A DNA stretch of 64,000 bases from Sporomusaceae bacterium (GTDB taxonomy: Bacteria; Bacillota; Negativicutes; UBA1444). Of this stretch, positions 34,913 through 47,674 are shown piece after piece. The stretch is from positions 62,001-126,000 of the forward strand of contig JAHDPL010000023.1 of assembly GCA_018434355.1 (NCBI GenBank). The letters are read 5' to 3'. Below the pieces are notes generated by a model, which had not been told where the DNA came from, ran no database searches, and was given only the letters and a program-made list of their open reading frames with translations. The position numbers and the translations under genes were made by a program. Numbering within the stretch: the first letter of the stretch is position 1; the number at the start of each line of letters is the position of its first letter.

Positions 34913-35227
34913 ATGAGCGTCAATCTAAGCGACAGACTCATCACGCAGATTCATGACCTGGCCAGCAAGCACCCCATCCACCGGGTCGTGCTGTTTGGTT
35001 CGCGGGCGCGGGGAGATCATCATGCCGCGAGTGATATTGACCTGGCGATTTTTCCGTCGCCGGATTTCAACAGCAGGGAACTAGTGAGCAATGAAGTCGA
35101 TGAGCTGCCTACGCTGCTCAAAATCGACCTGGTTTTTGTTGATGAACAGACAGCTGATGATTTGCTGGACCGCATCAATCGGGAAAGAGTGCTTCTCTAT
35201 GAGCGACCTGAATCGAAAACTAAATAA
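34913..35227 (+). CDS. MNT-type nucleotidyltransferase (MntA-like antitoxin)
   Basis: 104-residue minimal nucleotidyltransferase. The active-site motif is complete: VVLFGSRARGDHHAASDIDLAIF. Such proteins pair with HEPN/HepT-like toxins and neutralise them by nucleotidylation. AGGATGG precedes the ATG. Its stop overlaps the start of the HepT-like gene by 29 bases. The partner is truncated, so the module is probably inactive as a toxin-antitoxin pair. Confidence 0.85.
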   Translation: MSVNLSDRLITQIHDLASKHPIHRVVLFGSRARGDHHAASDIDLAIFPSPDFNSRELVSNEVDELPTLLKIDLVFVDEQTADDLLDRINRERVLLYERPESKTK

Positions 35228-35438
35228 CTTTTCCACGGCGTTGTCCTGTTTACAAGAAGGGGGGGGGCAGCTGGAACAGGCCGGCGACCTCGGGCGTGAC
35301 GGCTTGATTCAGCGTTTTGAGTTCACTTTTGAATTAGCCTGGAAAACATTGACGGCCTGCTTTGAACAGGAAGGGTTAACCGGATTGGTATCACCGGAGG
35401 GTTCCAGGAGTTGGCGACTCGATTGCGATCCAGAGTAA
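35199..35438 (+). pseudogene. HI0074-family (HepT-like) toxin, truncated
   Basis: Family landmark GLIQRFEFTFELAWKTL is clear, but the frame stops after 79 residues where relatives run about 130. After LVSPEG the reading is unlike the family (RSWRLDCDPE); a shifted frame reads GFQELATRLRSR and also stops soon. The C-terminal half is therefore lost. A run of nine G at 35259-35267 near the start (EGGGQ) could slip. It overlaps the MNT gene, the usual arrangement of the pair. Confidence 0.7.
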
Positions 35439-35470
35439 TAGCGGAGTAGCCAAGTAATTAGTCTCATGTT

Positions 35471-35517
35471 CTGCGACGCGGCAACCTCTTTGCGGAGGAT
35501 GTCGCGTTGATTGCTTT
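35471..35517 (+). terminator. Terminator-like repeat-family copy 2
   Basis: GCGAC (35473-35477) pairs with GTCGC (35501-35505), inner CCTC/GAGG stem with CTCTTT loop entry as in the pilA terminator; T run weak. Confidence 0.5.
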
Positions 35518-35570
35518 TATTGAGAATTTACGCTAGAGTGCGCAAGTGCTGTATTACCTTGATAAATAAT

Positions 35571-35604
35571 ACGTATTGAATGAACACGTACTGAATGATA
35601 GAAT
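35571..35604 (+). promoter_or_regulatory. hicAB promoter with operator-like direct repeat
   Basis: TTGAAT (35576-35581), 17-base spacer, TAGAAT (35599-35604). Overlapping it are two 13-base direct repeats, ACGTATTGAATGA (35571) and ACGTACTGAATGA (35586), one mismatch, 15 bases apart. Position suits binding by HicB or the HicA-HicB complex. Confidence 0.55.
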
Positions 35605-35625
35605 TATTCTAAGGAGGTCCCTCGC

Positions 35626-35808
35626 ATGACCTTTCGAGAACTGGAAAAGTTGGTTCTCGCTGATGGCTGGCGACGCAAAAATTGTGTTGGTTCGCATAAC
35701 CAGTATGTTCACTCGCAAAAACCAGGCAAGGTGACGATTCCAAATCACACAGGCGATATATCTAAAGCAGTTGTGCAGTCTGTTCTGAAGCAGGCGGGAT
35801 TGAAATAG
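35626..35808 (+). CDS. hicA: HicA-family mRNA interferase toxin
   Basis: 60-residue toxin with the double-stranded RNA-binding-like fold. Family pattern: FRELEKLVLADGW, GSHNQYVH containing the catalytic His, and VTIPNHTGDISKA. AAGGAGG precedes the ATG. HicA cleaves mRNA and is held in check by HicB, encoded 33 bases downstream. The genes look intact. Confidence 0.93.
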   Translation: MTFRELEKLVLADGWRRKNCVGSHNQYVHSQKPGKVTIPNHTGDISKAVVQSVLKQAGLK

Positions 35809-35841
35809 CGCATGCAAATCCTTTGAAAGGAGCAGTTTAAA

Positions 35842-36252
35842 ATGATTTCAGCCTATCCGGCTTGTTTTTATAAAGAAAAATCTGGCGGTTATTCGGTGAT
35901 TTTTCCTGATCTCAATCACTTGGCGACTTGCGGCGATACGTTGGATCATGCTTTGGCCATGGCTGTGGATTGCCTGGCCGGGTATCTTTATACCGCCGCC
36001 AGGGATGGCGAGAAGGTTCCTGGGCCCTCTGCCATTGGGTCAATCCAGCCAGATCAGGAATACGATGCGTATGAGGAAGTCTTTGTGAGTTTGGTTGCGG
36101 TAGACGTGGCTGAGTATGCGAAAACGCATTTTGAAAAAGCAGTCAAGAAAACACTGACCATCCCAAAGTGGTTGAATGAGCGGGCCGAGCGTGAGGGCGT
36201 CAATTTTTCACAACTGCTGCAGGCCGCGCTGCGGCAAAAGCTAGGCGTGTAG
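35842..36252 (+). CDS. hicB: HicB-family antitoxin
   Basis: 136-residue antitoxin. The N-terminal degraded RNase H-like fold (YPACFYKEKSGGYSVIFPDLNHLATCGDTLDHAL) precedes a C-terminal ribbon-helix-helix DNA-binding part (TIPKWLNERAEREGVNFSQLLQAALRQ). It neutralises HicA and represses the operon. AAAGGAG precedes the ATG. Confidence 0.93.
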   Translation: MISAYPACFYKEKSGGYSVIFPDLNHLATCGDTLDHALAMAVDCLAGYLYTAARDGEKVPGPSAIGSIQPDQEYDAYEEVFVSLVAVDVAEYAKTHFEKAVKKTLTIPKWLNERAEREGVNFSQLLQAALRQKLGV

Positions 36253-40020: not shown

Positions 40021-40039
40021 CGATTCATTGCAAATTTAT

Positions 40040-40068
40040 TTGACAAACCCTTTTGTTTGATTTAATAT
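40040..40068 (+). promoter_or_regulatory. Promoter of the primase element
   Basis: TTGACA (40040-40045), 17-base spacer, TAATAT (40063-40068), in an AT-rich stretch (40021-40110) that stands out from the GC-rich surroundings. Confidence 0.7.
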
Positions 40069-40113
40069 TATCATTGTTAAGTGAATGTGTTAAATAAATA
40101 GGAGGGTTTTATT

Positions 40114-40722
40114 ATGACGCCGCATGAAGTCCGCGCGCGCTGCGCCGAGCTGGGCACGCCGGTCGTGCAGAGCACGCTGGCCAATTACAAATCCGCCGGC
40201 CTGATTTATCCGCCGGTGGTGCAAAGTATGGGCCGCAACGTCGGCAAAATTTCCACCTACCGCGACGAAGTCCCCTATGAGATTTATACGGCGCAGCGGC
40301 TGTCCGGCCGCGACTTCGGCTTTTCGCTGGAATCGGTCGCGCTGTTTCGGGCCCAGTGGCTGGCTGGCGGCAATGAGTTTGCCGATGGATTGCCGGTCGA
40401 CCTGTATGTCGGCGGCGGGGCCATGCTGTGGGGACTAGTGTACAATCTTGCCCAAATCGGCATGCCGCTAGTCGGACAATATCTGTTCTTTTTCTATCCA
40501 CCGCAGCAAATGACGCAAATCATCGACTATGTGAAGCGGCAGGAACCGGACAGCCTGACCGACGACCTGCCGACAGGCACGACATCCGATACCGGCGAGG
40601 AACTGCGCGGGCTGGTGCTGCTGCGCCGCAAGGTCGACGGGCATCATCTGCTGGCCCTGCTCTATGATACGGAAGCCCGCGTGCTGACGATCATGGGGGT
40701 CTTGCCCGAGGCGTTGCAATGA
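40114..40722 (+). CDS. MerR-like helix-turn-helix protein of the primase element
   Basis: 202 residues. The first 60 resemble a MerR-type winged helix: STLANYKSAGLIYPP, then GRNVGKISTYRDEVPYEIYTAQRL. The rest is not recognised; it includes a hydrophobic stretch (MLWGLVYNLAQIGMPLVGQYLFFF, in two parts around 110-130). AGGAGG precedes the ATG and the stop overlaps the primase start by 4 bases. Its placement suggests control of, or a helper role in, replication of the element. Function otherwise unknown. Confidence 0.55.
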   Translation: MTPHEVRARCAELGTPVVQSTLANYKSAGLIYPPVVQSMGRNVGKISTYRDEVPYEIYTAQRLSGRDFGFSLESVALFRAQWLAGGNEFADGLPVDLYVGGGAMLWGLVYNLAQIGMPLVGQYLFFFYPPQQMTQIIDYVKRQEPDSLTDDLPTGTTSDTGEELRGLVLLRRKVDGHHLLALLYDTEARVLTIMGVLPEALQ

Positions 40723-42860
40723 GCTGGCAGAGCTGGCTGGAGTCGGTCTGCGGCCCGATCCGCTGGAAAAACAATCAGGGGACTTGCCGCTGTCCGCTGC
40801 CGGGACATGGCAGCGACGACAAACATCCTTCCTTTTCGGTAAATGCCGTAACCGGGCAATTTAACTGCCACAAGGAAAATATTGGCGGCGGTCCTTACAA
40901 ATTGGCAAGACTGACCGGCCACCCGCTACCGGCCAATCAGGACTGCAAACCGCGCCAGATATCGGCGCAGCAGATCGACAAACGCTATGACTATAAGGAT
41001 GCAGACGGCAAGCTGATTTATCAGGCGGTCCGGCTGCGACCGAAAGGTTTTTATGTCAGGCGGCCAGATCCCGCGTGCGCTGGAGAATGGCTGAATAACC
41101 TGAAGGATTGCGAACCGCTCCCCTACCGGTTGCCAGAGCTACTGGCGGCCATAAAGGCGGGTGAGACGGTGTTCGTGGTGGAAGGCGAGAAAGACGCCGA
41201 CGCCCTGGCCGGGTTTGGCCTGGCGGCCACCACCAACCACGGCGGCGCGGGCAAATGGACTCCCGCGTGCTCCCGGCACTTTGCGGCCGGCGCCAGGGTC
41301 GTTGTGATCGCGGATAACGACCTTCCTGGGCAGGACCACGCACTGGATGTGGCCCGCAAGCTCCAGGACCAGGGTTGTGACGTTTGCAACCTCACATTGC
41401 CTGGTCTCCCGGAAAAGGGAGACGTATCCGACTGGATACAAAATGGCGGCGATAAGGCGGAACTGCTACGGCTTGTAGAACTGCAGCGGGCGCAGGCCGA
41501 ATTCGCCTTTACCGACCTCGGCAATGCCGAGCGGTTTGCCGCCAGTTACGCCGGCCAGCTCCGCTATTGCGGCGACTGGAAAAAATGGCTTTATTGGGAT
41601 GAAACCCATTGGCGCATCGACAACACCGGCGAAGCCGACCGTAAGGCGGCCGAAGTCGTGCGCGAAATCCTGCGTCTGTCGGCTTTGCTGCCGGACGAAG
41701 CCAAACAAAAGGCAATGGCCGGTTTTGCCCGGCGCTGTGAATCGGCGGCTCGGCTTAGCAGTCTGCTTTCGCTGGCCCAGTCGCAGGCGCAGCTGGCGAC
41801 AACCGCCGATGCGTTTGACCGGGACCCTTGGCTGTTTAACACGCAAAATTGCCTGATCGATCTGAGAACCAATCAGGTGCTGCCGCATGATCCGTCGCGG
41901 CTGGTGACCAAACTGTCACCGGTGGTCTATGATCCGGCGGCGACCTGCCCGACTTGGGATGATTTTCTGTCGAGGGTGCTGGCGGACCGAACGGAGTTGA
42001 TCCGCTACCTGCAAAAAGCGGTCGGCTATTCGCTGACCGGCGAAACCGGCGAACAGTGCCTGTTTCTGCTGTACGGCCAGGGGGCCAACGGCAAGAGCAC
42101 ATTTTTGTCTACAATCATGGGGATTCTCAACACTTATGCCCGTCAGTTGCCGATGGACGCGCTGCTATGCAAAAACAGCCGTCAGATTCCCAACGATATC
42201 GCCGCGCTGCGCGGGGCGCGTTTTGCTTCGGCAGTCGAGGCGGACGACGGTTCGCGCATGGCAGAAAGCCTGGTGAAGCAGATGACCGGTCAGGACAAAC
42301 TGACGGCTCGTTTTCTGCATGGCGAATGGTTCGAATTTGAAGCACAGTTCAAGCTGTGGCTGGCGACCAACCACAAACCGGTGATTCGCGGCTGCGATGA
42401 AGCGATCTGGCGTCGGATGCGGCTGATTCCCTTTACGGTAACGATTCCTGCTGCCGAGCGCGACCCGCGTCTCGGTGAAAAGCTGCGCCAGGAATGGCCC
42501 GGTATCTTGAACTGGGCACTGACAGGCTGTCGCCTGTGGCGCGAAGAAGGACTGACGCCGCCAGAGGATGTGTTGGCGGCGACCGAGGAATATCGGGACG
42601 AAATGGATATCCTGGGCGATTTTGTCGTGCAGTGTTGCGTGCAGAATCCGTTCGGCGCGGCGGTAGTGGCCGATACCTACCGGGCTTACGAGAACTGGTG
42701 CGTCGAAACCGCAGAACGGCCGGTCACCAAACGGACCTTTATCAGCCGAATGCGCGAACGGGGACAAAAGACGAAGCACGGCAGCGGTCATGTGCTGGTC
42801 TGGGACGGGTTGGCTCTGGCGGAAGCAATGCCAGGTAACGAGGTAACGACGGTAACGTAG
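40719..42860 (+). CDS. P4-type phage/plasmid primase-helicase
   Basis: 713-residue replication protein like the phage P4 alpha family. An N-terminal CHC2-like zinc motif (CRCPLPGHGSDDKHPSF then FNCHKEN) is followed by a Toprim domain (about 148-235: VFVVEGEKDADAL, VVVIADNDLPG), a D5_N region (about 290-430) and an SF3 helicase with Walker A LYGQGANGKST near residue 452 and FKLWLATNHKPVIRG. It looks intact. No integrase or capsid genes are nearby. The last codons (GNEVTTVT) are themselves made of iteron repeats that are mirrored downstream. Confidence 0.9.
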   Translation: MSWQSWLESVCGPIRWKNNQGTCRCPLPGHGSDDKHPSFSVNAVTGQFNCHKENIGGGPYKLARLTGHPLPANQDCKPRQISAQQIDKRYDYKDADGKLIYQAVRLRPKGFYVRRPDPACAGEWLNNLKDCEPLPYRLPELLAAIKAGETVFVVEGEKDADALAGFGLAATTNHGGAGKWTPACSRHFAAGARVVVIADNDLPGQDHALDVARKLQDQGCDVCNLTLPGLPEKGDVSDWIQNGGDKAELLRLVELQRAQAEFAFTDLGNAERFAASYAGQLRYCGDWKKWLYWDETHWRIDNTGEADRKAAEVVREILRLSALLPDEAKQKAMAGFARRCESAARLSSLLSLAQSQAQLATTADAFDRDPWLFNTQNCLIDLRTNQVLPHDPSRLVTKLSPVVYDPAATCPTWDDFLSRVLADRTELIRYLQKAVGYSLTGETGEQCLFLLYGQGANGKSTFLSTIMGILNTYARQLPMDALLCKNSRQIPNDIAALRGARFASAVEADDGSRMAESLVKQMTGQDKLTARFLHGEWFEFEAQFKLWLATNHKPVIRGCDEAIWRRMRLIPFTVTIPAAERDPRLGEKLRQEWPGILNWALTGCRLWREEGLTPPEDVLAATEEYRDEMDILGDFVVQCCVQNPFGAAVVADTYRAYENWCVETAERPVTKRTFISRMRERGQKTKHGSGHVLVWDGLALAEAMPGNEVTTVT

Positions 42861-42954
42861 TTTGCATTTATTTTCGATATTTTGGTAGGGACATTAGTAT
42901 GGTTGAAATTATTATAAACAATCCATATTTCGTTACCTTCGTTACCTCGTTACC
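42834..42954. repeat. Mirrored triple iteron array, candidate replication origin
   Basis: Three GGTAACG units at 42834, 42842 and 42851 (spacing 8 then 9) are mirrored by three CGTTACC units at 42931, 42940 and 42948 (spacing 9 then 8). The two 24-base arms match at all but one base as an inverted repeat around a 73-base AT-rich centre. The left arm lies within the primase gene's 3' end. P4-family primases bind short iterons at their origin, so an origin is a reasonable reading; an attachment or regulatory site is possible. Confidence 0.6.
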
Positions 42955-42974
42955 TGTAAAGCAAAGAATAATTG

Positions 42975-46986: not shown

Positions 46987-47256
46987 ATGAATTTGATTGT
47001 TAGAGCAACTGATGTTAAAAATAATTTTGGCCGCTATTTACAGCATGCGGTGGATAATGGCGAGGTCATAATCGAAAAGAATGGCCGACCCATCGCTAAA
47101 CTGATTTCTTTGGCGCGACCTAGCGGTAGTGACAACAATAAAGAGAAGAACTTTATAAGCGATCGTTTGCTTGGGGCTCTGCAGCCAGAACCATTGGCTG
47201 ATTATAAAGTGGCCCGTGCTGGAGCGTTGGAGAAAAAGTATGGTCGTACTGATTGA
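46987..47256 (+). CDS. Phd/YefM-family antitoxin
   Basis: 89 residues. The Phd fold is shown by VRATDVKNNFGRYLQHAVDNGEVIIEKNGRPIAKLIS, followed by a flexible C-terminus that would wrap the toxin. AAAAGGGG precedes ATG 46987 at better spacing than ATG 46981. The stop overlaps the PIN toxin start by 17 bases. A perfect palindrome over the promoter predicts autorepression. Confidence 0.88.
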   Translation: MNLIVRATDVKNNFGRYLQHAVDNGEVIIEKNGRPIAKLISLARPSGSDNNKEKNFISDRLLGALQPEPLADYKVARAGALEKKYGRTD

Positions 47257-47674
47257 TACCAACATCCTGCTGGATGTTTTGCTGGCGCGTCAGCCATATT
47301 GCGAAGACGCGCTGCGTGTGCTTAAACTGGCGGAAAGCGGCGCGATTAAGGGTTGGATTGCGGCGAATAGCGTTGATAATATCTATTATATTTCACGGCG
47401 TCAGTTGTCGCCGGAACAAACCCGAAAGCTGCTAAAAGATTTGCTGCAGATTGTCCATGTTGCATCGCCGGCGAAAAAGGATTTGCTGTGGGCGATCGAT
47501 AGCGAGATGCCTGATTTGGAAGATGCCATCCAGACTGCCTGTGCGGTCAAAGCCGGTGCGAAAGCTATCATCACCAGAAATGAAAAAGATTACGCCGATT
47601 CGCCGGTGAAGCCGATTTCGCCGCCGGCGTTTTTGAAAATGCTGAAAGCAAAAAGTATTTTGCAGATTGACTGA
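47240..47674 (+). CDS. PIN-domain toxin (VapC-like ribonuclease)
   Basis: 144-residue PIN nuclease. The fold starts VVLIDTNILLDVLLARQP, with acidic residues again in DLEDAIQTACA and ITRNEKDY, completing the metal-binding set. It overlaps the antitoxin gene by 17 bases. Such toxins cut tRNA or rRNA. The start ATG 47240 is chosen to begin at the PIN fold. Confidence 0.9.
   Translation: MVVLIDTNILLDVLLARQPYCEDALRVLKLAESGAIKGWIAANSVDNIYYISRRQLSPEQTRKLLKDLLQIVHVASPAKKDLLWAIDSEMPDLEDAIQTACAVKAGAKAIITRNEKDYADSPVKPISPPAFLKMLKAKSILQID

Follow-up and report, generated by a model that had tools for sequence, protein, structure and literature searches.

A primase-helicase gene with a mirrored iteron array in a type IV pilus locus: a probable integrase-less minimal replicon

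What is a segment of about 2.9 kb, with a regulator gene, a primase-helicase gene and a mirrored repeat, doing among type IV pilus genes, where it lies between an MFS gene and the gene of a GspH-like pilin? We analysed it within a 64-kb stretch of DNA, hereafter the window, in which an initial annotation had suggested a minimal or relic replicon. We argue that the segment (40040-42955; Table 1) forms a self-contained replicon of PICI/SaPI5 type with its own bipartite iteron origin, an orphan devoid of an integrase, and we place the probability of this reading at roughly 0.85. The mirrored repeats are, on our analysis, almost certainly the site where the primase-helicase starts DNA copying.

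Table 1. Features of the segment (positions within the window)
Feature	Position	Strand	Remark
Sigma-70-type promoter TTGACA-17-TAATAT, start of element	40040..40068	+	
MerR-like regulator gene, 202 aa	40114..40722	+	60-62% identical copy in sister species
P4-family (D5/SF3) primase-helicase gene, 713 aa	40719..42860	+	
C-terminal domain (about aa 640-704), proposed iteron-binding part	42636..42830	+	model
Left iteron set, GGTAACG x3 (spacing 8, 9), inside last codons of primase gene	42834..42857	+	
AT-rich spacer, 73 nt, proposed melting site	42858..42930	.	GC content 24.7%
Right iteron set, three mirrored units (spacing 9, 8), end of element	42931..42954	-	

The segment opens with the AT-rich promoter that had been proposed for it; the region 40021-40113 has a GC content of 24.7%, and the same -35 element with a 17-nt spacing is present in a sister species (L022, 5125) and in a decayed copy of the segment (L014, 7496). 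The regulator gene overlaps the start of the primase gene by ATGA, the two forming one operon. Its designation as MerR-like is reasonable, because two relatives (in L059 and L070), alignable with its N-terminal part, give weak Pfam MerR matches that stay under the curated threshold, though the protein of the window itself has no Pfam match. The N-terminal 50 residues of its structure model reach a pLDDT near 90, while the model as a whole is weak and gave no fold match for the whole protein, and a search for the gene in viral contigs, phages and plasmids returned no match.

The primase gene is indeed of P4 type and intact, as the initial annotation held; it passes TIGR01613 ('phage/plasmid primase, P4 family') with 296.8 bits against a cut-off of 108.7. 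The protein comprises a zinc-finger-like N-terminus, a Toprim domain (aa 152-237), D5_N (aa 270-420), an SF3 helicase with Walker A Lys459 and a C-terminal winged-helix-like domain; D5_N and DUF5906 lie above their Pfam cut-offs and Toprim_2 just below its own. An archaeo-eukaryotic primase domain was not what we found in it, given this Toprim_2 match and matches to Toprim-containing primase families. A structure model of aa 262-713, built with 46 related sequences (pLDDT 93.5), matched best the ASFV primase C962R (Z 33.0), followed by the SaPI5 primase-helicase 7ola (Z 30.9, rmsd 4.1, 386 residues aligned) and then poxvirus D5, and the match with 7ola spans the helicase and the C-terminal domain. 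The predicted helix-helix-hairpin domain at the end of the model (strand 379-388, helices 389-402 and 410-419, strands 423-426 and 432-439, in model numbering) is winged-helix-like by the order of its elements. The last seven residues, which are encoded by the left iterons, are disordered in the model. Relatives of this primase in public genome and viral contigs were few and distant.

The array itself proved to be as first described. Three GGTAACG units (starting at 42834, 42842 and 42851 on the forward strand) are mirrored by three CGTTACC complements (42931, 42940 and 42948) with spacings of 8/9 and 9/8, and the two 24-base arms are complementary at 23 of 24 positions. The left arm lies within the last codons of the primase gene, where it encodes GNEVTTVT*, the right arm ends 94 nt beyond the stop codon, and the centre between them is AT-rich against a GC content of 56% for the 64-kb window. 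No other 7-mer in the 64 kb has three close copies with a mirrored complement within 250 bp, and the inverted-repeat score of the array region was matched by none of 100 dinucleotide shuffles. Nor is the repeat widespread away from the primase, a pattern that the initial annotation had held against its own reading: the doublet GGTAACGN{1,2}GGTAACG has only two sites in the 3.9-Mb genome, one in the window and one in contig C49.

The site at C49 belongs to the decayed copy, which has an rsmH-like gene on one side and a gene of unknown function on the other and retains the promoter, fragments of the primase gene and the origin; its similarity to the window segment stops at 42955. The arms of the two copies match at 47 of 48 positions and the spacer (74 nt at C49) at only 45 of 74 (61%), which marks the iterons as the part under constraint. 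In a comparison over 114 nt the decayed copy has 90% identity with the window and 75% with the sister species, window and sister having 78% with each other; the decayed copy thus arose after the two species had separated or was acquired from a close relative. As terminal repeats or a target-site duplication we could consider only the 7-bp TAGCGAT (40018 and 43032), which we rejected as no more than chance, about 0.5 matches of this kind being estimated in the stretch compared; no flanking repeat like it was found at C49.

An inverted repeat just beyond a stop codon might also be the hairpin of a transcription terminator or attenuator. We regard this as negligibly probable here, given a loop of 73 nt, tandem units in each arm, the lack of a T-run directly past the right arm, the conservation of the arms and not of the spacer, and the absence of such repeats from other genes of the same loci. 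That the repeat is only an operator, through which the primase protein regulates its own gene, would agree with the position of the left arm inside the gene, and iterons in replicons often have both operator and origin roles. Yet the repeat lies 2.8 kb away from the promoter, and two sets around an AT-rich spacer are the layout of tested PICI origins (PMC6092414), which leaves the operator-only explanation very improbable.

The segment stands by itself with respect to mobility genes. As had been noted at the outset, the reading frames near it include no evident integrase, excisionase or capsid gene; an integrase with an attachment site, xis, a divergent repressor and capsid-sizing genes are likewise not evident in the frames around it, and the 64-kb window has no tRNA gene. 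What the sister species has behind pilT is the MerR-like gene and, as far as codon 318, the primase gene, both with open frames; its contig stops there, short of the origin, and the only other origin-bearing relative in the genus is the decayed copy. Between window and sister both genes have a dN/dS of about 0.3 at a dS of about 1, estimates of dS near 1 being rough, and their synonymous divergence equals that of pilT; the comparison is one of two genomes, that of the sister being 73% complete. Vertical descent of the element's genes under selection would fit these values. The element lies after pilT in the sister and between the MFS and GspH-like pilin genes in the window, and no element is found behind the sister's MFS orthologue, so either the element moved or the locus was rearranged; an orthologue of the GspH-like pilin is not in the sister's assembly (73% complete). 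The sister locus also has a gene of 833 aa between the pilin and pilT genes (L022 1507-4008), with no Pfam match and no homologue in the window, and the pilus locus of the window has toxin-antitoxin-like genes (34913-36252 and 47171-47674), namely a nucleotidyltransferase pair, HicA/HicB and a PIN-domain protein.

These observations bear on whether the origin is alive. It could be real and nonetheless dead, a leftover stranded by a prophage or satellite and surviving by chance only, as the want of integrase, excisionase and packaging genes beside it and the existence of the decayed copy may suggest; but both genes of the window are intact, and the open sister genes, with their dN/dS of about 0.3 at a dS of about 1, speak against it, and we hold a dead origin to be rather unlikely. 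For the same reasons the 'minimal replicon' half of the initial annotation fits the window segment and the 'relic' half does not: the window copy is an intact orphan, and the true relic is the decayed copy in the same genome. Our preferred reading is that the segment descends from an integrative element and that the genus has retained it intact as an orphan. Its location in a type IV pilus locus in either species, together with purifying selection, would also suit domestication, the host keeping the module for its own pilus or DNA-uptake use. This we consider quite improbable, as the positions differ between the species, no element stands behind the sister's MFS orthologue, the argument rests on two genomes of the genus, and selection for the benefit of the element itself accounts for the same data. 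Just as doubtful is the related idea of a satellite replicon, stripped of mobility and kept under selection in the pilus locus as a controllable secondary origin that serves the host; if true, it might serve, for example, local amplification or the handling of DNA taken up through the pilus.

What we observed of the segment is its anatomy, the family and fold of its primase, the constraint on its iterons and the recurrence of its layout. On the reading of an intact orphan replicon, its working can be pictured as follows. The MerR-like protein would control the operon promoter; with the operon on, the C-terminal domain of the primase would bind both mirrored iteron sets and two helicase rings would load facing each other. 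The AT-rich spacer would then melt, the primase domain would prime and the host replisome would take over, a course that would amount to autonomous replication.

We also looked for the heptamer in 380 genomes of the class, where the GGTAACG doublet is mostly single and within genes. Clusters on both strands occur between genes only, and such non-coding clusters are confined to the two sites described here and to genomes G095 and G298. In G095 (contig C41; L059 5926-17343) an integrative element carries a MerR-like gene, a zinc-finger primase, a 617-aa protein, an ERCC4 nuclease and an integrase, and a dense GGTAACG/CGTTACC array directly follows the gene of the 617-aa protein. This protein has no Pfam or PHROG match, and we detected no similarity between it and the primase of the window; the heptamer common to the two loci may hence be convergent. 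The genome that harbours the window segment has further integrated elements. One at C32 (L015 5091-11017) is compact and reminiscent of a capsid-encoding satellite, with an integrase, a repressor-like gene, a small HTH gene, a capsid gene and a D5 primase that is 33% identical and has mirrored TTGTCGCAGG iterons; another, at C30 (L016 3633-6061), has a MerR-like gene, a small HTH gene and the gene of a tyrosine integrase lined up in this order behind a tRNA-Lys, and is interrupted by the contig end.

If the array is an origin, does the layout recur behind related primases? The initial annotation had named absence of the repeat beside orthologous primase genes as evidence against it, and this holds for the heptamer, which most of them lack, and fails for the layout, as mirrored iterons of other sequence stand in the same place: past the stop codons of the nearest homologues we found AAGTAGAG, AAGTGACA, TTGTCGCAGG and GGTAGAGG. 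From viral contigs and genomes we gathered D5-primase homologues and de-duplicated them to 55 that shared 4-mers only to a limited extent. For each gene, the highest-scoring ungapped inverted repeat within 360 bp spanning its 3' end was compared with those of 100 dinucleotide-shuffled versions. An inverted repeat at p<=0.01 was present at 69% of the 55 primase 3' ends, as compared with 4% at the genes' own 5' ends (n = 53) and 5% at the 3' ends of other reading frames of the same loci (n = 105), in a test that detects inverted repeats, not iterons, and on homologues that were picked for their resemblance to the family of the window primase and are less than fully independent. A score of at least 14 was reached by 60% of primase 3' ends, 0% of own 5' ends and 3% of other 3' ends. 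A significant direct repeat was present too in 44% of the surveyed primases, and each mirrored repeat has its own sequence. A GTGAC core was seen in 9 of 42 survey arms, against 1.5 in shuffled arms; this recurrence hints at a shared recognition core and is suggestive only.

Among named phages, 6 of 11 primases have the mirrored repeat in non-coding DNA (phi105, Lactobacillus T25, a Listeria phage, Ganymede, Javan95 and AcaML1). The repeat is missing from about a third of the D5 primases in the survey and from both plasmid-borne primases that we examined (0/2), so the layout is common and not universal. An 8.5-kb Thermaerobacter plasmid (L288, NZ_CP037897.1), with genes for an integrase, MerR, HTH and P4 primase in a similar order, was rejected as a counterpart, having no mirrored repeat and a MerR protein of no detectable similarity; its record has the same protein accessions near both ends and may contain a duplicated overlap. 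It has been stated that no other known bacterial replicon has the PICI origin organisation (PMC6092414). This seems too narrow: the layout is not PICI-specific, because named phages such as phi105 and AcaML1 carry mirrored repeats too.

A compact and intact primase-iteron replicon free of mobility genes is useful for asking how such modules persist. Furthermore, the survey indicates that two iteron sets around an AT-rich spacer are common behind P4-family primases of ordinary phages and prophages, which offers a simple way to find hundreds of phage origins and lets each origin-binding domain be paired with its own iteron sequence.

The layout itself is already known from PICIs and SaPIs, while the segment stands alone, without genes for moving or packaging. 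The PICI/SaPI origin adjoins the rep gene on its 3' side and consists of two iteron sets with AT-rich DNA between them, and the rep-ori of one PICI maintained a plasmid in E. coli (PMC6092414); SaPI Rep recognises the iterons directly downstream of its own gene via its C-terminal domain, and SaPI5 Rep is a primase-helicase with a primase of archaeo-eukaryotic type (PMC7581432). The window segment shares with them a primase and D5/SF3 helicase in one protein, the fold of the helicase and C-terminal part, and an origin directly 3' of the gene with 3+3 iterons around an AT-rich spacer; it differs in having no int, xis, divergent repressor or packaging genes, and in a zinc-finger/Toprim primase part where SaPI5 has an archaeo-eukaryotic one. 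The D5-type helicase of the SCCmec Cch2 operon similarly binds iterons (AAGTG) right behind its gene via the C-terminal domain, but there a separate polymerase pair primes, and binding needs direct, not inverted, repeats (PMC7581432). PICMI satellites are likewise small elements with a regulator and a primase, yet they carry an integrase gene, along with an integrase-overlapping gene that excision requires, and are packaged by a helper phage (PMC10803314). Bacteriophage P4, a satellite, has genes for an integrase and for capsid sizing, and the likeness here is one of protein family, its alpha protein belonging to TIGR01613 and uniting a Toprim-type primase, a helicase and an origin-binding winged helix in one chain (PMC4234260). 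The minimal replicon of pRN1 (3097 bp), although from an archaeal plasmid with a stem-loop origin without iterons and an archaeo-eukaryotic primase, has the same succession of promoter, small regulator, primase-helicase and downstream origin, the same C-terminal winged helix and the same size of about 3 kb (PMC4234260).
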